Positions 6,483 through 28,750 of a DNA stretch of 39,277 nucleotides are shown piece after piece. Position numbers and translations under genes: made by a program. Below the pieces are notes generated by a model. It was not told the DNA's origin. It ran no database searches and worked only from the letters and a program-made list of their open reading frames with translations. The stretch covers positions 1-39,277 of the IMG/VR virus record IMGVR_UViG_3300006175_000018, one strand, 5' to 3'. Within the stretch, counting starts at the first letter, position 1; each line of letters opens with the position of its first letter. The stretch is from a virus.

Positions 6483-6986
6483 ATGAAATCAATGCTTACT
6501 TGCGTCCGCTGGGCGCTCGCCTGCTTTGTTGCGCCGCTCATTGTTGCGCTGCATCGCTTTGGCAAGCCGCACGGCTTTGAAGCGTTCAACACAGTCAATG
6601 CCACAACGTTCAATCCAGTGCCATTGCTCAGCCATGACGACGATCCGAATTGGAAAGTGAAGCGGTATCCGTTCGTCGCAGGCACGGGCCCGGCGCTGGC
6701 AACAATGAAGCCCGGCTACTTGGTCAAGTTCGATGCAACGCTCGTCAACGTAACAGGCGCACTGCCTGCAGACGATGCGCTGCTTAGTGCCGTGATAATC
6801 GACCTGCCCGATCCTAACAATCCAAGCGACACATCCGTTGCCATTGCGTTGACGGGCTCGTTCGATAAAAACACGGTCAAATATGCCGACGGCACATCGC
6901 CAATCAACGTGGCTGGCGTAATCCAGTTGCGTGACGTCGGAATCTTCCTTGACGCCTGCGTGCCCGGTGGCGCGTTTGCACCTTAA
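6483..6986 (+). CDS. Putative head decoration protein (gpD-like)
   Basis: A 167-residue protein in the slot where lambda-like phages encode the capsid-stabilising decoration protein, between protease/scaffold and capsid. The body (about 60-165) looks like a small beta-barrel with short strands, ending in a GVIQLRDVGIFLDACVPGG-type segment. This resembles the late strand of the gpD family. The first 30 residues are unusual for a capsid protein: a hydrophobic run (LACFVAPLIVALH) that looks like a signal or membrane segment. A good purine-rich ribosome site (AAGGAAGG at 6463-6470) precedes the ATG at 6483 with a 12-base gap, so a later start may also be used. The call rests mainly on position and size. 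Confidence 0.55.
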   Translation: MKSMLTCVRWALACFVAPLIVALHRFGKPHGFEAFNTVNATTFNPVPLLSHDDDPNWKVKRYPFVAGTGPALATMKPGYLVKFDATLVNVTGALPADDALLSAVIIDLPDPNNPSDTSVAIALTGSFDKNTVKYADGTSPINVAGVIQLRDVGIFLDACVPGGAFAP

Positions 6987-18568: not shown

Positions 18569-19026
18569 TGGAAGGGCTCTTTGGCGCAATCATCTTTGGC
18601 CGCAGCCGTGGCCGCATCCACACGTTCTATGAGATCGAGCGCAAATACACAGGGCGCTTCGGCTCGCACATGGTGCACCTGCGCAAGCCGCTGCTGGAGT
18701 GGGCTGGCAACGATTTGATTGAGCTAACAATGCGCGTCAACCTCAACGCCAGTTGGTGCGGCGACCCTAACAGCATCCTTGCCGAGTGGCACTTCTTCCA
18801 CGAAAACGCCATAGCAGCGCCGCTGATTGTAGGCGGCAAACCGATGGGGCCCGGCTTGTCGTTGTTTGTAGTTACGGACATGTCGGAAGGCCACAAGCAC
18901 TGGCTGCCCGGCGGACAGCTAATAGCCGTTGAGGTCAGCGTGTCATTTAAGGAATACATTCCTTTTGCCGAAGGCTTGCTGTCGCAATTTGGCGTGCCCG
19001 GCTTTGTAGGGAGTGGCGCAATATGA
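18568..19026 (+). CDS. Tail protein U-like (P2 gpU)
   Basis: A 152-residue protein. Matches to the gpU family pattern include the start GAIIFGRSRGRIHTF, the hydrophobic core HLRKPLLEWAGNDLIELTMRVNLNA (in part), LIVGGKPMGPGLSLFVV and QLIAVEVSVSFKEYI. P2 U is needed for tail completion. TAATG and ATGA overlaps at its ends show close coupling. Confidence 0.85.
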   Translation: MEGLFGAIIFGRSRGRIHTFYEIERKYTGRFGSHMVHLRKPLLEWAGNDLIELTMRVNLNASWCGDPNSILAEWHFFHENAIAAPLIVGGKPMGPGLSLFVVTDMSEGHKHWLPGGQLIAVEVSVSFKEYIPFAEGLLSQFGVPGFVGSGAI

Positions 19027-19700
19027 CGCAGCCATTCATGCAAACAACAGCGGCGCTTGCTGCTAACTGGCGGCTCGCGTTTACGGACGCGGAAGGCTTG
19101 CCGCTTAACATGCAGTCCTTCGAGCAGATCGACTTCGGCGCGATCAGCTACAAGGAGATCTTCCAAAATGTGAAAACGATTTGCGCCACGCCAATCTTTA
19201 GCGCGGCGCTCGAGCGCACGCTTGGAATTGACGGCCGCATCGTCGACTTGCCGCTTGGCAAAGCAGCGGAAGCAACTGTTGCTTTTTTGCAGGCCATCTA
19301 CTTCTGGGAGCCGCGCGCAGAGATCAGTGATATCCAATTCTCTGCGAACGTTCTGGAAGGCCATCTTATAGCACAACTGAAACTCAAAATAAGCAATGTG
19401 ATCTATGGAACAGACACCCCATACACGCAGGCCAACATTTTCTTTGAAGCACCGATACGTGTTACAGGAGCATTGCCACCAATGAGTGTGCCAGTGCCAG
19501 TGCCGGGGCCACCCGGCAAAGAAGGGCCCACGGGCAAACGCGGCAGCATTTGGTTTATCGACACCGTTAATCCAGATGCTTCGACCAAGATCATCAACCC
19601 GCTGCCGATGGACGTATTTCTAAACACAACCAGCGGCGACGTCTTCCAGCTAATAGCAGACGGCGGCGGCGTGCTAACATGGAAAAGGTTATCGCCATGA
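19023..19700 (+). CDS. Baseplate wedge protein (gpW/gp25-like) fused to a collagen-like tail
   Basis: Residues 15-155 fit the gp25/lysozyme-like wedge family: INMQ-type start here LNMQSFEQIDFGAISYKEIFQNVKTICATP (in part), then RTLGIDGRIVDLPLGKAAEATV and a strand region. A short collagen-like run (about 160-172, GPPGKEGPTGKRG) is followed by a 50-residue domain (GSIWFIDTVNPD ... FLNTTSGDVFQLIADGGGVLTWKRL) of the kind that normally caps collagen-like phage fibres. This makes the gene a wedge-fibre fusion, which is unusual. The next gene starts four bases before the stop and also has a GPPG segment. Confidence 0.8.
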   Translation: MTQPFMQTTAALAANWRLAFTDAEGLPLNMQSFEQIDFGAISYKEIFQNVKTICATPIFSAALERTLGIDGRIVDLPLGKAAEATVAFLQAIYFWEPRAEISDIQFSANVLEGHLIAQLKLKISNVIYGTDTPYTQANIFFEAPIRVTGALPPMSVPVPVPGPPGKEGPTGKRGSIWFIDTVNPDASTKIINPLPMDVFLNTTSGDVFQLIADGGGVLTWKRLSP

Positions 19701-21013
19701 GCTGGGACAGCATTGGCAACATTAAGGGCCCGCCGGGCATCAGTGGCCAGATAACGGATCAGGGCTTGATGCCGTTAACTATGGCGCAGGATTACATCGA
19801 CGTGCTGCTTAACAAAATCAACGACGACAACAACTGGCTCTTTGTTGAAAAAAGTGTGCTCAACACGCTTGATGATAGTCCGCTCAACATTTTCGGCGGC
19901 ATCCTGCTCGACAAAACCGACAGATCGTTTCGCCTGCAACTCTCAGGCATGCCAGACAGTCCTAACTACTTCCTGCGCTGGGCAGTTAATGGCATGACCA
20001 TCCCGCCAACGCCTGCAGTCACTTATCAGTTGTTTGGGCCCAATGCAGGCCAAATCCTCGAAGCCTCGATGCCGTTTACGGTTAAGCTGCTGCCGAGCAC
20101 TACGCTCGCGGCACCGGTGATAATCACGCCGAGCGATGGACTTGTGAGCGGCGCGGGAACATTTACGCCAGCCACTGTCACGCTGACGACAGCAGCGCCA
20201 AGTGCAACGTTTACTTACACGCCGCAGACAGCGGGCGCGCATACGCTGCACACTTCCAACAACGGCGGATTGACAGACCCTGCTCCGGTGCCTTACACGG
20301 CGAACATTTCCGTGCGGCTACTCAACGGGCTGATCTCCTACTGGACGCTCGACGAAGGGAGCGGTAACCGCATGGACAGCCACGGCACCAATCACTTGGT
20401 GCCAACTGCAGGCAACCCCGGCTCGTTCGCTTTCGTCCTCGGTAACGGCGCATACTCTAACGGTGCCGCAGGCGCGGCATATCTTGCCTGTGCCAGCAAT
20501 CCGTCCCTACAGGTCACGGGCGACTTCACGTTCTCCTTCTGGGTGCGCGTTGACGGCCCAGCAACAGCTAACACTGTCATCATCGGTAAGAATAACCCCG
20601 GCTTTTCTAGCTTGGATTTTCTAGCCTCACACAGTGCCACGAATGGACTGACCTTTCAGGCTGGCGGCGCAACCGTTGCCAAAGGCGCGCCAGAAGCAGC
20701 ATTCCAGCAACGCCATGTGATTGTGTGGTTCGATTCCGTAGATAACAAGCTGCGCATGAGGATAGATGACGCAACGACGTATGTAAGCGCTGGCACTGCC
20801 ACACTCACTCAAGGAGCAGACCCGTTTGCCGTGTTATCGGGCAGCTACGGGAATGTGAACTGGAACGGGCTGGCTGACGAGATCGCCTTCTATAAGCGCA
20901 AACTGAACTCAGCCGAAATGACTGCGCTTTACGGTGGCGGCACGCCACCACGTTACTCATCATTCACGGCTGGCCGATTACGTGAGGCACTCAATAGAAA
21001 GGAACAACGATGA
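19697..21013 (+). CDS. LamG/concanavalin-like lectin domain tail protein
   Basis: Probable receptor-binding protein. ATG 19697 overlaps the previous TGA. Residues 10-20 hold a GPPGISGQ collagen-like piece, 60-140 are a beta-rich adaptor, and 145-205 resemble an Ig-like segment (AGTFTPATVTLTT, ATFTYTPQTAGAHTL, NNGGLTDPAPVPY). From about 212 to 420 there is a LamG/concanavalin-like jelly roll: ISYWTLDEGSGNRMDSHGTNHL (in part), FSFWVRVDG, DSVDNKLRMRIDD and a closing LADEIAFYKRKLNSAEMTALYGGG. The last motif is typical of these sugar-binding modules in phage and secreted proteins. Confidence 0.85.
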   Translation: MSWDSIGNIKGPPGISGQITDQGLMPLTMAQDYIDVLLNKINDDNNWLFVEKSVLNTLDDSPLNIFGGILLDKTDRSFRLQLSGMPDSPNYFLRWAVNGMTIPPTPAVTYQLFGPNAGQILEASMPFTVKLLPSTTLAAPVIITPSDGLVSGAGTFTPATVTLTTAAPSATFTYTPQTAGAHTLHTSNNGGLTDPAPVPYTANISVRLLNGLISYWTLDEGSGNRMDSHGTNHLVPTAGNPGSFAFVLGNGAYSNGAAGAAYLACASNPSLQVTGDFTFSFWVRVDGPATANTVIIGKNNPGFSSLDFLASHSATNGLTFQAGGATVAKGAPEAAFQQRHVIVWFDSVDNKLRMRIDDATTYVSAGTATLTQGADPFAVLSGSYGNVNWNGLADEIAFYKRKLNSAEMTALYGGGTPPRYSSFTAGRLREALNRKEQR

Positions 21014-22314
21014 TCAGGTCGCCCATCAACAGAGGTGTGCTGCAGAGCGATATCGACTTTGCTGGCTTTAAGCCGCTCAACGCTGATCTGTCTGACTACA
21101 ATCTCGGCGGCGGCGTGTCGTTAGGCGCATGGCTGAACGTCATGGACGAGCCATACAATGCGAAGGGCGATGGCGTAGCAGATGACACGGCTGCGATTAA
21201 TCGAGCGATTGCCGATGCAGTTACTGCAGGCGGCGGCACAGTGTTCTTTCCAAAGGGCATCTACCTCTGCAACGGCGCGTTCGACATCTACTGGAAAAGT
21301 ATCCTGACACTTCCGTTCCTGAATAACAACACAGTTAGTCCGGTCTCACTGCAGTTGCTGGGTGAAGTGATGCCAACATGGACTGTGGTAGCTGCGGCGC
21401 AGAATTACAAGTTCCTCTCCACTATTAGGACGACGCGCACCGATGGAATGACCGCTGACACTAACGGCTTTGCGGCGATCATTGCCGGTGGCCAGCCAAA
21501 GGGTAACGCCATTGTCACAAATTACGGCACTATGAACGGGCTTATGGTGAAGATAAAAAACATGCAGTTCCAGTGCCCCAGCGATCCCACCATGGGCGGA
21601 ATCCGTTTCGATGGACTGGGCTGGGCCTTTGTGGAAAATACCGTAGTGTATGCGGGCGGCGCAGAGCCAACGCACGGCACAACAGGCGTTTGGATGCCCA
21701 ACTGCATCAACTGGTCTATTAGCTGGATGAATCATGTTATCTCAGGCAACGGTTTTGATACCGGGTTTAAGGTAGGCGAACACTTGCGAGCGCCAATGAT
21801 TCAGGCATGGGCCTGCAAGAATGGCGTCACGTTTCTGGACGGCGTTTATCCGTCATGGGCCAACATCCAGCTCGGCAACTGCGTGGAAGGTGTGCGTTTC
21901 CTTGGGTATCATCCGGTTGATCTGCTGCTGGAAACCGAACACTCGCCAGCGAGTGACTGGACAGTGGCAGCGCACGACGTCAAAGACCCCAGCAATAAAG
22001 GCATGGGTGTTATCCGCTATTTCATCGGACAGGGAGGCGCTGGCAACGCCAGTATTGTAGCGGCTGTGGATGGCGGGACCGGACTAACGCTGATTGACTT
22101 GAACAGTGGCAACGTCACCATGAATACCACCTACGGCGCGGCAGGCGGTGCGCCGACGTTTAAGGGCAACATTCTGGCCGCGCAAGCTACGGCTAACGTG
22201 TTTTATATTGGCACCGACGCACGGTTAGTTCCTGTTAGTGGCGGAGCCAAACTCGAAGTTCGTAACACAGGAACAGGCACATGGCTGGAGGCAACACGAT
22301 GGACAAATCCCTAA
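21010..22314 (+). CDS. Pectate-lyase-fold tailspike (putative depolymerase)
   Basis: A 434-residue protein with a short attachment segment (1-50) and the Pectate_lyase_3 entry motif YNAKGDGVADDTAAINRAI followed by GGGTVFFPKGIYL. The middle is a repeated beta-helix with MGGIRFDGLGWAFVENT-type coils, and the C-terminus looks like a small trimerisation part. Such proteins degrade or bind capsular or lipopolysaccharide sugars. I cannot point to catalytic residues, so enzymatic activity is inference. It overlaps the LamG gene (ATGA) and is overlapped by the next gene by 16 bases. Confidence 0.85.
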   Translation: MIRSPINRGVLQSDIDFAGFKPLNADLSDYNLGGGVSLGAWLNVMDEPYNAKGDGVADDTAAINRAIADAVTAGGGTVFFPKGIYLCNGAFDIYWKSILTLPFLNNNTVSPVSLQLLGEVMPTWTVVAAAQNYKFLSTIRTTRTDGMTADTNGFAAIIAGGQPKGNAIVTNYGTMNGLMVKIKNMQFQCPSDPTMGGIRFDGLGWAFVENTVVYAGGAEPTHGTTGVWMPNCINWSISWMNHVISGNGFDTGFKVGEHLRAPMIQAWACKNGVTFLDGVYPSWANIQLGNCVEGVRFLGYHPVDLLLETEHSPASDWTVAAHDVKDPSNKGMGVIRYFIGQGGAGNASIVAAVDGGTGLTLIDLNSGNVTMNTTYGAAGGAPTFKGNILAAQATANVFYIGTDARLVPVSGGAKLEVRNTGTGTWLEATRWTNP

Positions 22315-23990
22315 TAGCTCTGCTTTTGTTACTGCCAACGCTTGCGCTGGCGCAAACACATACGATGCCCGGGAGCAATGTTGTCCCCAGCGGCGCTAGT
22401 CTCACAATCCAGAGCGGCGGCTCGATTACGGCGGCGGCGGGATCCACCGTTGCTGGATTTGGCAACCCGCTGCAGTGGGATGGCGGCGCAACCAATCTTG
22501 TGCCTGCTACGGGGCGCATCAGCCTCGGCCTTGTGATCGGGACAAATGTGCAAGCGTGGGACACTGACTTAGATACGTGGGCAACGAAGACGCCGTATGC
22601 AGGCACACTCACGATTACCACAGGCAAGACGCTCAGTGCCACTAACACGCTTACCTTATCGGGCACGGACGGGTCGACATTGAATATCGGAGCAGGCGGC
22701 ACATTAGGCAGCGCAGCTTACACCGCTGCCAGCGCTTACGAAGTCCCGCTCACGTTCTCGCAGTCCTTAAGTCGCGTTACTAACACAGTCACGCTTTCAG
22801 GCGATTCAACTTCGCCGGGCAACACGATGCTCTACGGCACGAACGGCAGTGGAGTGAAGGGCTGGTATGCACAGCCTGCTGGTGGTGGGGCTGGCGCAAA
22901 TCCCACCGCCAAGGTAGGCACTGCTGTGGTCAACGGAGCGGCTTCAACCTTTATGCGAAGCGATGCCGCGCCGCCTATTGATCAAACGGTGGATCTGGCA
23001 ATGACCGCAGCGCAAACTGAGACCGTAACCGATACCGCAACCGGAATCACGACGGACGTGTTAACCCTCGGACGTAATTCAGCAGGCACGCCCGGGGTTG
23101 GTTTTGGCGCAGGCTTACTGTTCAGAGGCAAGAGCGACACCACAATAAATAGGCCAATGGGCGAAATTAGCTCGGCTTGGCTGACAGCCACAGACGGCAC
23201 GCGAGAATCCGTGATGAGGATTCAAGCAGCTAACGCTGCAGGACTTCCGGGCGCGTATGTTTACGTCTTTGCCAACGGCGGCTTGAGTAACACAAACAAC
23301 AATCCCGGCTCTGGCATAATCAATTCAACGAACGGTTTTATTGTCGCCACAGCGGTCCCGGCCTCTGGCAAGTTCATGCAGAGCAACGGCAATGCAAACG
23401 TCCAGTCGGCTTATGCTTTACCCACTGCCGCAGGCGGCTTCGGCTACACGCTCAGAAGCGACAACAGCAATATCGCTTCTTATCCGCAGGACATTCTCAA
23501 TTCCAGCGTGTCCAGTCAGTCGCCGAGCACCAGCGACGTTTATCTGGCCGGATCGAATGTTCCCGTTGTGGCTGGTGATTTCAAAGCCAAAGGCCAGTAT
23601 CGCTGCCTGTTTGATGTAACCAAATCCGCTGGCACTGGAGCCATTGTGCTGTCGGTGCGTGTAGGCACAGCAGGCGCGATCGGTGATCCCGCAGTTCTCA
23701 CGTTCACTTTTGGCGCTGGCACATCTGTCGCCGACACCGGAATCTTTGAGGTGATCGTCACATGGCGCACCGTAGGCAGTGGCACAAGCGCGGTGGTGCA
23801 AGGGATTTGCAGGGCCACTCATAACCTGCCTACCACGGGCCTCTTTAATAACGCGGCTGACTGGTCAATCGTGGCTACGACTTCCAGCGGGTTTAATAGC
23901 AGCAGCGCCACCAACATGGGAGTGAGCTTCAATGGGAGCACGGCATTTGCTGGCACAATTACCGTTGTTCAGGCGACCTTGCTACAATGA
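22299..23990 (+). CDS. Fibre-like protein with N-terminal signal peptide
   Basis: A 563-residue protein. GGAGG at 22287-22291 is 7 bases from ATG 22299, so the protein starts MDKSLIALLLLLPTLALAQ, a textbook Sec signal with an AxA-like site, followed by strand-turn repeats (SGGSITAAAGSTVAGFGN, GTLTITTGKTLSATNTLTLSGTD in part). This resembles phage fibre shafts with 'GTLTLTTGKTL'-type repeats. The end is a beta-rich domain. A signal peptide is odd for a virion protein, since it would export it from the host. It may be a host-derived or secreted decoy protein. Confidence 0.75.
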   Translation: MDKSLIALLLLLPTLALAQTHTMPGSNVVPSGASLTIQSGGSITAAAGSTVAGFGNPLQWDGGATNLVPATGRISLGLVIGTNVQAWDTDLDTWATKTPYAGTLTITTGKTLSATNTLTLSGTDGSTLNIGAGGTLGSAAYTAASAYEVPLTFSQSLSRVTNTVTLSGDSTSPGNTMLYGTNGSGVKGWYAQPAGGGAGANPTAKVGTAVVNGAASTFMRSDAAPPIDQTVDLAMTAAQTETVTDTATGITTDVLTLGRNSAGTPGVGFGAGLLFRGKSDTTINRPMGEISSAWLTATDGTRESVMRIQAANAAGLPGAYVYVFANGGLSNTNNNPGSGIINSTNGFIVATAVPASGKFMQSNGNANVQSAYALPTAAGGFGYTLRSDNSNIASYPQDILNSSVSSQSPSTSDVYLAGSNVPVVAGDFKAKGQYRCLFDVTKSAGTGAIVLSVRVGTAGAIGDPAVLTFTFGAGTSVADTGIFEVIVTWRTVGSGTSAVVQGICRATHNLPTTGLFNNAADWSIVATTSSGFNSSSATNMGVSFNGSTAFAGTITVVQATLLQ

Positions 23991-24250
23991 AAGAAGAGCC
24001 GTGGAAAACCTTCCTCAACTGGGGCGCAGTCGTCATGTTTTTTGGCATGCCGCTGCTCGTTATGTTGATTCAGTTGCTGGCGCTGGCGTTTCCGGACGTG
24101 CTATCGAAGGAGCTGCCGCAAAGTGAGTTCAAATATCTTTACGAATTTCAGCGCGCGCTCGCCATCCTTGTGTTTGGTCTGGCTGGCTTGCGCACGTGGG
24201 AGCACGTAAGCAACGGCAAACAAAAAAAGAACGGAGATCAAAAGCCATGA
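23987..24250 (+). CDS. Putative holin-like membrane protein
   Basis: An 87-residue protein with two clear hydrophobic stretches (about 12-34, GAVVMFFGMPLLVMLIQLLALAF, in part, and about 57-68, ALAILVFGLAGL) and a basic, hydrophilic C-terminus (NGKQKKNGDQK). It is small, membrane-bound and directly before a glycosidase-like gene with a four-base overlap, which fits a holin-endolysin pair. No holin family is recognisable, so function is inference from context. Confidence 0.5.
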   Translation: MKEEPWKTFLNWGAVVMFFGMPLLVMLIQLLALAFPDVLSKELPQSEFKYLYEFQRALAILVFGLAGLRTWEHVSNGKQKKNGDQKP

Positions 24251-24753
24251 AAGAAAAAGGCAAGGCGCACATCAAAAGGCACAAGCTCGAACCACTCATG
24301 ACCGTTGGCTCAGTGACTATCTACGCCACGGCGAAAGGCGACTACATTTGCTTCGTCAGCGATCTCGACGTCTGCACGGACGGCACTGGCAAGCACTACG
24401 GCGACAAGTCGCCGCAGGATGAAACGGCTTACTACAACGGCGGCAAATTCCTCAACGCCGACAAGGACAAATATATCGTCATCCCGCCACAAGTTCGCAG
24501 CGCAGTTGACCCTGTAGTCATGGGCTGTCAGGCCAAGCTGACGCGGCTTGACACGATGGAAAATAGTCCAGCGCTGTGCGGCGAGATCGGGCCCGACAAT
24601 AAGACAGGCGAAGCTGCAATTTGCTTGGCGAAGAAAATGAACCCACAAGTCACAGCCAACAGCGGCGATTCGCGCCTGATCTACTTTTATGAGCTATGGC
24701 CGGGCGTGCCTGCTGTTGTAGATGGTAAACACTACAAACTGGAGCCTGCATAA
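24247..24753 (+). CDS. GH75 chitosanase-like protein, candidate endolysin
   Basis: A 168-residue protein with the layout of the GH75 (fungal chitosanase) fold: an N-terminal strand, DLDVCTDG (39-46), a DETAYYNGGKFLN segment, KYIVIPP (75-81), and the key block CGEIGPDNKTGEAA (111-124). The usual GD-x-GP...GE pattern has Glu113 in place of the first Asp and keeps Glu122. Related phage proteins occur next to holins and are thought to cut cell-wall glycan. It starts in an ATGA overlap with the holin-like gene. No signal peptide is present, which fits holin-dependent release. Activity on chitosan or murein is inference. Confidence 0.6.
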   Translation: MKEKGKAHIKRHKLEPLMTVGSVTIYATAKGDYICFVSDLDVCTDGTGKHYGDKSPQDETAYYNGGKFLNADKDKYIVIPPQVRSAVDPVVMGCQAKLTRLDTMENSPALCGEIGPDNKTGEAAICLAKKMNPQVTANSGDSRLIYFYELWPGVPAVVDGKHYKLEPA

Positions 24754-24754
24754 T

Positions 24755-25957
24755 ATGCCAACAATATCAGCAACACCCGGAGCGCCTGACTACGGCTTGG
24801 CGCTTGTGCCGGACATCGACTTTGCCGAGAAGGATCCCGCCGTAATCGTGTCGGAAGTCATCGCCAGCTATGAGGCGGCTTTCAAGCTGCTCACTGGCGT
24901 TGCAAAGCTGCTTGCGCCCGGTGATCCCGTGCGGCTGTTTTTGCTCGTTGTTTGCCAGTGGCTCAGCCAGCAGCGCGTGATAATCGACTTCACTGGCAAG
25001 CAGAATTTGCTCAAGTATGCGCACGACGATTACTTGGACAATCTTGGCGCACTGTATGGCGCGCGCGGCTTGCGCCTGCAGCCGACGGCCGCAGTAACAA
25101 CACTGCGCTTCACACTTGAAGCTTCGCTGGCGGAGAGCGCCACAATTCCAAAAGGCACGCTGTGCCAAGCGCCCAACGGCGTTGTTTTCCAAACAACGGA
25201 AGCAGGCGTAATTCCTTCGCTGCTAACTTCCGTTGATGTGCCTGCGCAAGCCACGACTGCTGGCACTATTGGCAACAACTTTGCCCTTGGGCAGATCACG
25301 AGCATCATTAACTGGAATCAGCCCTTTGGCGTAACTGTTACAAACACAACTATCACGGCAGGCGGCAGCGACGCCGAAACGGACGAGCAGTATCGATATC
25401 GCCTGTGGCTTGCCATTGAAAGCTTCAGCACGTGCGGGCCCAGAGAGGCTTACGAATTCTGGGCGCTATCCGCCAATCCGGACATCATCCAGTGCGTTGT
25501 GCATAGTGCGCCCGAGATTGCAGGCGAAGTGTGGCTGTATCCGCTGCTACGTGGCGGCGTGCTGCCAACAACGGACGTGCTGGCACAAGTTAAGGAAAGC
25601 TGCAGCCGCGACGATCGTCGCCCGCTCACCGACTACGTTACGGCCAAACTTGCCACTGCCTTTGTTTACACGCTCAACGTTGATTACTGGGTGCTGCAAA
25701 CAAACGCCGTGCTGCTGGAGTCAATTCAGACGGCCGTAACGCAGGCGGCACAGGATTGGATTGAGTGGCAGCGCAGCGCAATTTCGCGCGACCTAAACGG
25801 CAGCGAACTGACAAAGCGCATGCTTGAGGCAGGCGCAAAGCGCGTTGTCCTCAACTCGCCGTCGCCGTCGTTTCAGGTGATGAACTTTGACCAGCTTGCC
25901 ACGCATGATCCCGACATCGATCCCATAATCAACTTCGCAGGCTTCGAGGATATTTGA
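24755..25957 (+). CDS. Baseplate wedge protein J-like
   Basis: A 400-residue Baseplate_J family member. Typical blocks: GKQNLLKYAHDDYLDNLGALYGARGL (in part), FTLEASLAESATIPKGTL, ITSIINWNQPFGVTVTN and GGSDAETDEQYRYRLWLAIESFSTCG (in part), then the AYEFWALSANPDI stretch and a terminal domain with LTDYVTAKLA. J forms the wedge frame that carries I and H. Start ATG 24755 lies one base after the lysis gene stop. TGATG overlap with I follows. Confidence 0.93.
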   Translation: MPTISATPGAPDYGLALVPDIDFAEKDPAVIVSEVIASYEAAFKLLTGVAKLLAPGDPVRLFLLVVCQWLSQQRVIIDFTGKQNLLKYAHDDYLDNLGALYGARGLRLQPTAAVTTLRFTLEASLAESATIPKGTLCQAPNGVVFQTTEAGVIPSLLTSVDVPAQATTAGTIGNNFALGQITSIINWNQPFGVTVTNTTITAGGSDAETDEQYRYRLWLAIESFSTCGPREAYEFWALSANPDIIQCVVHSAPEIAGEVWLYPLLRGGVLPTTDVLAQVKESCSRDDRRPLTDYVTAKLATAFVYTLNVDYWVLQTNAVLLESIQTAVTQAAQDWIEWQRSAISRDLNGSELTKRMLEAGAKRVVLNSPSPSFQVMNFDQLATHDPDIDPIINFAGFEDI

Positions 25958-26956: not shown

Positions 26957-28750
26957 ATGAGCCTATCAAAACAAGAATTTACCGACGCCGGACGCTCCAT
27001 GCTTGGCAGGGCGCAGGCAGGCGAAACACTAACGATCTCCAACATTGTTGTTGGCAGCGGCGCTGCAGGCGTGCCGTCTGACTTATGGCCGCTCATTGCA
27101 CTCATTGTGCATGAGATGGACGTAAACATTTCAAGCAAACGCGACTTCGGCAACGGCACACTGCTTGTGGAAGGCAACTTCCGCAGCGACGATGCGCCGC
27201 ACGCATTTGACTTGCGCGAAGTGGGCATCATGGCGCACATAGGCGCTGAGGCTGACAGGCTTTACAGCGTGGCAAATGTTTTCACGGATGTGCCTGTGCA
27301 TATCGACCCCGCTGCGCCTGTTATTACTGCCTTCAAAATCAAGCTGATCGTCGACCGCATTTCGACCGACGACATCATTGTGCAGATCGGGCCCAGCGAA
27401 GCCGTAACTGGCGAAAACATAGGCGCGGACACAATAGGGCCCGGCTTCTACAAAGAGAGCATCGCCAACCTGCAGCGCTTTAAGCGCGCTGCTGCAGGCG
27501 TTGGCATGATAATCACAGAGGACGTGGACGAAGAAGTAATCACTTTTGCCACTAACCAGCTCACTGCGGACGTCGACCTTTACGTGCCGCTGTCCTATCC
27601 GTCGCCGCCGTCTGGCGCACGGCTGTTTCCAACAATACAGGACGCGCACGACTACCTGCTCACGTTCACTATTCCGGCAAACAAATTCGCGCGCATACAC
27701 GTCGCCGCAGGCCACTACACGCAGACAATTCCAATCCAGTTCACGCACCCAAATGCCGCGCAAATCCAAGTGCTCGGACAGGCTGTTACGACCAAGACTG
27801 TCAGCGGCACAATCACGCGCGCAGGCGCGCTGCCAGACCTTGACATCACTGTGCCTATTCCAAGCGGCACTGCAGGCATTGCCGTCAACGATGTTGTTTA
27901 CCTTTACGACGCGCCGCACGCGCAAATGGAGAGTTGCGGCTACGTGACGCAAGTGCTCAGCACGTCCGTCAAAATCCGGATGAAAGTTTTCAATGTGCTG
28001 CCGCCAGCCAGCATTGGCGCTGGCTCTGCAAAGCTGCTCGTCATCCCGTGCCAGTTTAACAGCAGCACGAGCGGCTCTGTGTTTAACTGCCCCAACGGCA
28101 TCAACTTGATTAAAGGCTTCGGCTTCCGCTCCACCGTGGCGCTGCAAGGCACTGCCATCACCGTGCTCGGCGCTGGCGGCACACTGGAGCACTGCTACGC
28201 AGTAGCCTACTCGCTCGGCTTTGGTATTGGCGGCGCACAGACGTTGCTCACGCCAGTTGTGTCCGCCAACGCCTGCAACGTTGCAATGGAAGTCGGGCCC
28301 GGCGGCAACGTGTTCCTGCAGCCGCCAAATCCAGTCGGCGGCTGGGCGCGCTTCACTTGGAGCGGCAACACAACCTATGGGCTGTGGGTTGTTGGCGGCT
28401 CGTATGTAACAGGCGGCGACGGCTCCGCCACGTATGCGTGCAGCAATGCCACAGGCATCCGCTGTGACACGCGCGGCTGGACAGGCATTGCCAGCGCCAC
28501 GCACAGCGGCGGCATCGTTGCCGGATGGAATGTTGTCGGCATACAAGCCGGTATGCTCGGCGTAGTAAACACAGCCATCAACGTCGAGTGTGCTATTGCG
28601 GCCAATACGTCGTGGGATTTGAAAGCAGACAACGGCGCGCAAATCAGCCTGCTTTACAACTCAGAGATTGTCGGCAATTACTCGCCTGCGCTGGACACGT
28701 TGGGCCCGAGCGGCGGCTACACGCACATCGGCGGCGTCAATCCGCCGTGA
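26957..28750 (+). CDS. Tail fibre / H-like receptor-binding protein
   Basis: A 597-residue protein. Residues 1-180 follow the phage tail-collar-fibre N-domain: FTDAGRSMLGRAQAGETLTISNIVVGSG, in part, then LREVGIMAH, YSVANV and IIVQIGPS. The remainder is a beta-solenoid (GTAITVLGAGGTLEHCYAVAYS-type coils, in part). It follows I as H does in P2. ATG 26957 is one base after the I stop. The 24 residues upstream in frame are within I and rejected. It ends at 28750, exactly against the convergent gene at 28751. Confidence 0.85.
   Translation: MSLSKQEFTDAGRSMLGRAQAGETLTISNIVVGSGAAGVPSDLWPLIALIVHEMDVNISSKRDFGNGTLLVEGNFRSDDAPHAFDLREVGIMAHIGAEADRLYSVANVFTDVPVHIDPAAPVITAFKIKLIVDRISTDDIIVQIGPSEAVTGENIGADTIGPGFYKESIANLQRFKRAAAGVGMIITEDVDEEVITFATNQLTADVDLYVPLSYPSPPSGARLFPTIQDAHDYLLTFTIPANKFARIHVAAGHYTQTIPIQFTHPNAAQIQVLGQAVTTKTVSGTITRAGALPDLDITVPIPSGTAGIAVNDVVYLYDAPHAQMESCGYVTQVLSTSVKIRMKVFNVLPPASIGAGSAKLLVIPCQFNSSTSGSVFNCPNGINLIKGFGFRSTVALQGTAITVLGAGGTLEHCYAVAYSLGFGIGGAQTLLTPVVSANACNVAMEVGPGGNVFLQPPNPVGGWARFTWSGNTTYGLWVVGGSYVTGGDGSATYACSNATGIRCDTRGWTGIASATHSGGIVAGWNVVGIQAGMLGVVNTAINVECAIAANTSWDLKADNGAQISLLYNSEIVGNYSPALDTLGPSGGYTHIGGVNPP

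Follow-up and report, generated by a model that had tools for sequence, protein, structure and literature searches.

Exported proteins encoded beside receptor-binding genes are already known in phages. The gene for Llp of T5 lies directly downstream of that for pb5, and the genes for Cor and similar superinfection-exclusion lipoproteins lie downstream of gpJ (PMC9586334). Proteins of the Llp and Cor type serve to prevent superinfection as well as futile adsorption to cells that have already lysed; for T5, purified pb5, its receptor-binding protein, is by itself enough to block infection (PMC9586334). In lambda, Lom carries a signal peptide, and its gene lies between those for spike and fibre (PMC12309495). 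Large, lectin-headed exported proteins are not known in such positions as far as we found, and a literature search with subscription journals mostly outside its reach returned no paper on signal-bearing phage fibres. The gene described here appears to encode a protein of this kind. Our best reading is a fibre-type binding protein that would be exported late and not assembled into the tail, with receptor masking or a role as an adhesin being most likely.

The window, that is, the whole stretch of DNA analysed, corresponds to a 39,277-nt virus record from an uncultured contractile-tailed phage. Among its products are a terminase, a DnaB-like helicase and a RecT-like protein as well as a contractile-tail module (P2-type gpU, gpW and gpJ) and a gpH-like tail fibre; the baseplate protein has only distant matches among isolates. 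As in the related loci, a cassette of fibre and lysis genes is inserted between the P2-type genes for the gpW-type baseplate wedge (19023..19700; all window features given here are on the + strand) and the gpJ-type baseplate protein (24722..25957). In the more distant relatives L080, L081 and L083-L085, gpW and gpJ are adjacent, or gpU and gpJ have one short gene between them. Within the cassette, a gene for a pectate-lyase-fold tailspike-like protein without a signal (21010..22314) overlaps by 16 nt the gene for the predicted exported fibre-like protein (22299..23990; 563 aa plus stop), which is followed by genes for a small predicted membrane protein, holin-like (23987..24250), and a GH75-like protein (24247..24753). 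In contig L002, a homologue of the latter forms the C-terminal part of an Amidase_3 fusion, which makes a lysis-related role probable; the window gene is likely part of an endolysin module placed among the baseplate genes. The GH75-chitosanase-like assignment itself has an E-value of 0.0013, below the cut-off. A gpH-type tail fibre without a signal, likely the virion fibre, is encoded at 26957..28750.

How does this locus compare with the known systems? The position directly downstream of the tailspike-like gene fits that of Llp (T5) and Cor (T1, phi80), which are likewise phage-encoded, exported and located directly downstream of a receptor-binding gene. However, Llp and Cor are small lipoproteins acting on an outer-membrane transporter, whereas the window protein is a 563-aa fibre with a TNF-like head, so that only position and export are common to them. 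The window protein lacks a lipobox ([LVI][ASTVI][GAS]C) and has no Cys near the signal, its only Cys residues being at positions 436 and 504; a lipobox as in Llp and Cor is found in the homologue of contig L048. Lom is likewise exported and encoded inside the tail spike and fibre region, but it sits in the membrane as a beta-barrel and comes from a temperate phage. The window protein is instead a soluble type of fibre, and neither the window nor a 57-kb contig from the same phage, which encodes identical fibre and gpJ proteins, yielded an integrase. Phage tail fibres and spikes with TNF- or C1q-like tips have the same predicted C-terminal fold and a fibre-type body; they differ in that the window protein has a Sec signal in place of the N-terminal module. 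The TNF-like lectins BC2L-C-Nt and PLTL are the nearest head folds, yet they are without this kind of shaft or signal.

The first-pass annotation had proposed a signal peptide on a 563-residue protein starting at ATG 22299, 7 bases behind a GGAGG. Both coordinates and letters proved correct: the Shine-Dalgarno sequence GGAGG (22287..22291) lies within the 3' end of the tailspike-like gene, 7 nt 5' of the ATG, and is identical in L002, and the ORF extends from 22299 to 23990. An in-frame ATG at 22281 would add MAGGNT only. It is very improbable that translation begins after the hydrophobic part or that the ORF is reached by a frameshift from the preceding gene. Such a start would fit the overlap with the preceding gene, which is in the -1 frame, and the next in-frame ATG, 22365, just behind the signal. 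However, ATG 22299 has a strong Shine-Dalgarno sequence whereas ATG 22365 has none, and the late start was rejected on this ground; the hydrophobic stretch also stays open and hydrophobic through the divergence described below. A frameshift fusion with the tailspike gene was rejected as well, since the overlap contains no slippery heptamer (judged by eye) and the overlaps in other relatives are 4 nt long (ATGA), which is ordinary translational coupling.

The N-terminus of the ORF is MDKSLIALLLLLPTLALAQTHTMPGSNVV, and the predicted signal peptide (22299..22352) would be cleaved at ALA/QTHT, giving MDKSLIALLLLLPTLALA/QTHTMPGSNVV (a slash marks the cleavage site). It has the features expected of a Sec/SPase I substrate, namely, a charged n-region, a hydrophobic h-region and small residues at -3 and -1, with an n-region (MDK) that is weak and carries little net positive charge. 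Signals were called with a home-made rule for n-, h- and c-regions. When the first 30 residues were shuffled, 0.09% of the trials reached the observed score; with all residues of the protein shuffled, 3.3% received any signal call. The same rule also calls the predicted membrane protein at 23987 and a capsid-region gene at 6483 in the window, and therefore the rule alone cannot separate cleaved signals from membrane segments.

The case for the signal rests mainly on comparison, and this comparative evidence is stronger than the rule score. The L002 homologue is 92% identical overall to the window protein. Their mature parts differ with a dN of 0.039 and a dS of 0.545 (omega, 0.07) and are under strong purifying selection. 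In the signal region (codons 4 to 18), 23 substitutions have accumulated in 45 nt (dN, 0.43), together with an additional in-frame insertion of 6 nt (2 codons). The L002 signal, MDKSLITILALIATNLVAFA/QTHTMP, is still hydrophobic and preserves AxA/QTHTMP. In neutral simulations with an equal number of changes, any signal call survived in 3.9% of the runs and an equally good signal in 0.4%. The persistence of hydrophobicity and of the AxA motif through this divergence indicates that the stretch is translated and its hydrophobicity maintained, which is how a signal peptide would behave. The shuffles, the conservation of properties in L002 and the AxA/QTHTMP site thus bear out the proposed signal peptide, and we consider export of the 563-aa fibre-like protein to be quite probable.

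Signals also recur at this position in the genome. We chose comparison loci by related gpJ and GH75-like genes, and across 24 loci (L002 included), 11 of the 36 cassette ORFs of at least 200 aa had a signal call versus 1 of the 143 other large ORFs, the single exception being a tape measure (Fisher p = 5.6e-8, a value that is optimistic in that the loci are related). The signals themselves differ: L048 has MKKTLRAILLATLLVA/C with the lipobox LLVA/C, L045 has ...VFGWSVFA/DQTIFQ, and L066 has MKRLLMITLAALSVAAIGLA/DQTV. Behind these unrelated signals, the three proteins have a common mature start, DQT[IV]...LT[IL]xSG, and the mature N-terminus of the window protein, QTHTMPGSNVVPSGASLTIQSG (22353..22418), is partly common to L045, L048 and L066, where it directly follows the predicted signals. 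Two signal-bearing cassette genes are present in L061, three in L075 and one in L072. The ORF in L072 (773-7639) encodes a single signal-bearing protein of 2289 aa with Thr/Pro linkers and an Ig-like C-terminus and spans nearly all of the region upstream of gpJ. One of those in L061 (5578-7266) encodes a signal-bearing protein of 563 aa with 16 cysteines, which has no Pfam or PDB match and looks like a secreted protein. Many related cassettes hold signal-free fibres only, which indicates that export is not essential to this phage group.

Comparison with these signal-free fibres suggests what the signal replaces. The shaft or body of the window protein (22458..23453) consists of a QWDGG...GRISLGLVIGTNVQAWDTDLDTWA-type repeat plus a 'GFGAGLLFRGKSDTTINRPMGEISSAW' domain, and the latter is also present in signal-free fibres of the same gene slot. 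BLASTP alignments with two of these, from L050 and L055, start at window residue 52-54, leaving residues 1-51 unaligned. In place of the signal, the L050 and L055 fibres open with MPLTQVRGGQVQDGS... and MGLTQIRGSQVQDGT..., respectively, an N-terminus of the TQV/TQI type that characterizes the signal-free relatives in this slot and is absent from the window protein. A related TQV-type module is present in L045 and L048 as well, but as a short ORF of its own immediately upstream. Most simply, these arrangements would mean that the signal stands in place of an N-terminal module, which presumably docks to the tail.

The window protein could nevertheless be a virion fibre that leaves the cytoplasm, by export or upon lysis, and only then attaches to the tail, or one that retains its hydrophobic N-terminus for docking or membrane contact. 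Its gene sits among fibre genes, and about 35 homologues from virus contigs with the same head have virion-type N-termini and no signal. The tailspike-like protein ends in a domain, YIG..ARL...LE...W...WT, that has counterparts just before the signal-bearing fibres of L002, L045 and L048 and a looser one in L066; conserved alongside the fibre, it could be a docking partner. However, the N-termini fit cleavable signals (AxA sites and one lipobox) and change freely in sequence, unlike a docking surface, and a different N-terminal module heads the same-slot homologues without a signal. We therefore regard a place in the virion as rather unlikely, and as less likely than the masking and adhesin readings below.

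The C-terminal 165 aa (head; 23493..23987) gave an AlphaFold2 jelly-roll model with a mean pLDDT of 91.4 (41 sequences; monomer). The full-length model had a mean pLDDT of 43.6, with low confidence also in the body, and was set aside. The best structural match of the head is the N-terminal domain of BC2L-C (Z 10.0, 118 residues, 2.6 A), followed by PLTL (Z 9.9) and then other jelly rolls; the first two matches cover 118-119 residues at 2.6-2.9 A with 8-15% sequence identity. We predict for the head a jelly roll of the TNF/C1q type, with trimeric bacterial lectins as its nearest structural neighbours, at Z scores that are middling. Together with a body that matches signal-free fibres of the same slot, this predicted head agrees with the fibre-type nature proposed earlier. 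The head domain occurs 48 times in the fetched contigs, and at least 7 of the proteins that carry it have a signal (those of the window, L002, L004, L045, L048, L106 and L167). Two genome contig scans and the isolate phage searches yielded no relatives of the head, and by sequence neither the whole protein nor the head had a useful match in Pfam, PHROGs or PDB. The pair of head cysteines, Cys 51/119, is present in signal-bearing and signal-free proteins alike and is hence uninformative as disulfide evidence for export.

Among viral models, the head matched many uncharacterized phage proteins and the depolymerase of Klebsiella phage KP34. This match and the pectate-lyase fold of the neighbouring tailspike raise the idea that the window protein is an exported depolymerase or another enzyme acting on the envelope or exopolysaccharide. 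However, neither Pfam nor PHROGs detected an enzyme domain in the 563-aa protein, and its head resembles binding and trimerization domains; an enzymatic role is improbable, though less so than a misassigned start.

What would an exported fibre do for the phage? Export is well supported by sequence, and from it and the neighbourhood we infer a function. We hypothesize that the product is a free receptor-masking fibre, exported late and acting outside the tail, and we give this reading a probability of roughly 0.4. A trimeric fibre or lectin-type protein, synthesized late in infection, would leave the cytoplasm through the Sec pathway of the host, with its signal cleaved at ALA/QT, and would reach the envelope, the surface or the medium instead of the tail. 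Its head would bind a cell-surface glycan and so mask receptors carried by the infected cell or by the debris of lysis, limiting superinfection and the wasted adsorption of progeny. Export itself, trimer formation, outer-membrane crossing, glycan binding and masking are all presumed steps of this route. We count in its favour that the gene directly follows the tailspike-like gene and precedes the lysis genes. Moreover, the phage keeps its signal-free gpH-type fibre, which leaves the virion with a fibre even if this protein is exported. A difficulty for masking is the route by which a trimeric fibre of 560 aa would pass out of a diderm periplasm ahead of lysis; its action could also be confined to the moment of lysis, to the periplasm or to debris.

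The next reading in order is an exported surface adhesin, or a glycan-binding or matrix-acting protein, that would benefit the infected cell or the spread of the phage in the manner of a moron. This seems possible but clearly less likely than masking. Other signal-bearing proteins of the same slot look secreted and envelope-active (LamG, Fn3, Thr/Pro linkers and the 16-Cys protein of 563 aa), and lambda Lom offers an exported precedent between tail spike and fibre genes (PMC12309495). However, no prophage relatives were found, which, with no integrase found, makes a long-term benefit to a lysogen unlikely, and the gene has a late-operon position adjoining the lysis genes. The first-pass annotation had named a secreted decoy, a surface adhesin or a superinfection-exclusion factor. 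Its signal peptide and fibre-type protein hold, and export is supported by property conservation, the recurrence of unrelated signals and the enrichment in this slot; the recurrence across a phage group and in unrelated phages goes beyond that annotation. A decoy that copies the receptor-binding tip of the phage itself was rejected: the covered parts of this phage encode no second protein with this head, and sharing of a receptor with another of its fibres is accordingly not supported. Our order of preference thus runs from the receptor-masking fibre through the adhesin or moron, the virion fibre after export and the exported enzyme to the wrong start.

If receptor masking is correct, phages export large receptor-binding fibres besides mounting them on virions and have a route to superinfection exclusion or progeny protection that is distinct from the small lipoproteins. 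Fibre-like ORFs in metagenomes should then not be assumed to be virion parts. A broader and rather doubtful extension is that tailed phages repeatedly swap the docking N-terminus of a fibre for a Sec or lipoprotein signal, forming a recurrent secreted class whose free fibres mask receptors late. Its examples are the group with P2-type baseplates, the otherwise different contigs L004 and L167, which have the same head, and L027, L032 and L041. Signal-bearing fibre-like ORFs lie upstream of a putative tape-measure gene in L004, in a contig also holding a GH75-like gene in L005, and before lysis-type genes in L167. The gene roles in these six contigs were judged by eye from sequence, which makes them weaker evidence.

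Signal-bearing fibre-like ORFs were also seen in the capsid-gene region of the unrelated phage contigs L041 (5596-7434), L027 (4951-6852) and L032 (5482-6861). In the window, a decoration-protein-like gene at 6483-6986 (+), between head protease-like and capsid-like genes, has a conserved hydrophobic start, MKSMLTCVRWALACFVAPLIVALHRFGKP. In its homologues in L182-L184 this segment is absent and the proteins start directly at the mature-like part; the hydrophobic start is altered in L181 and retained in L177, L179 and L180.
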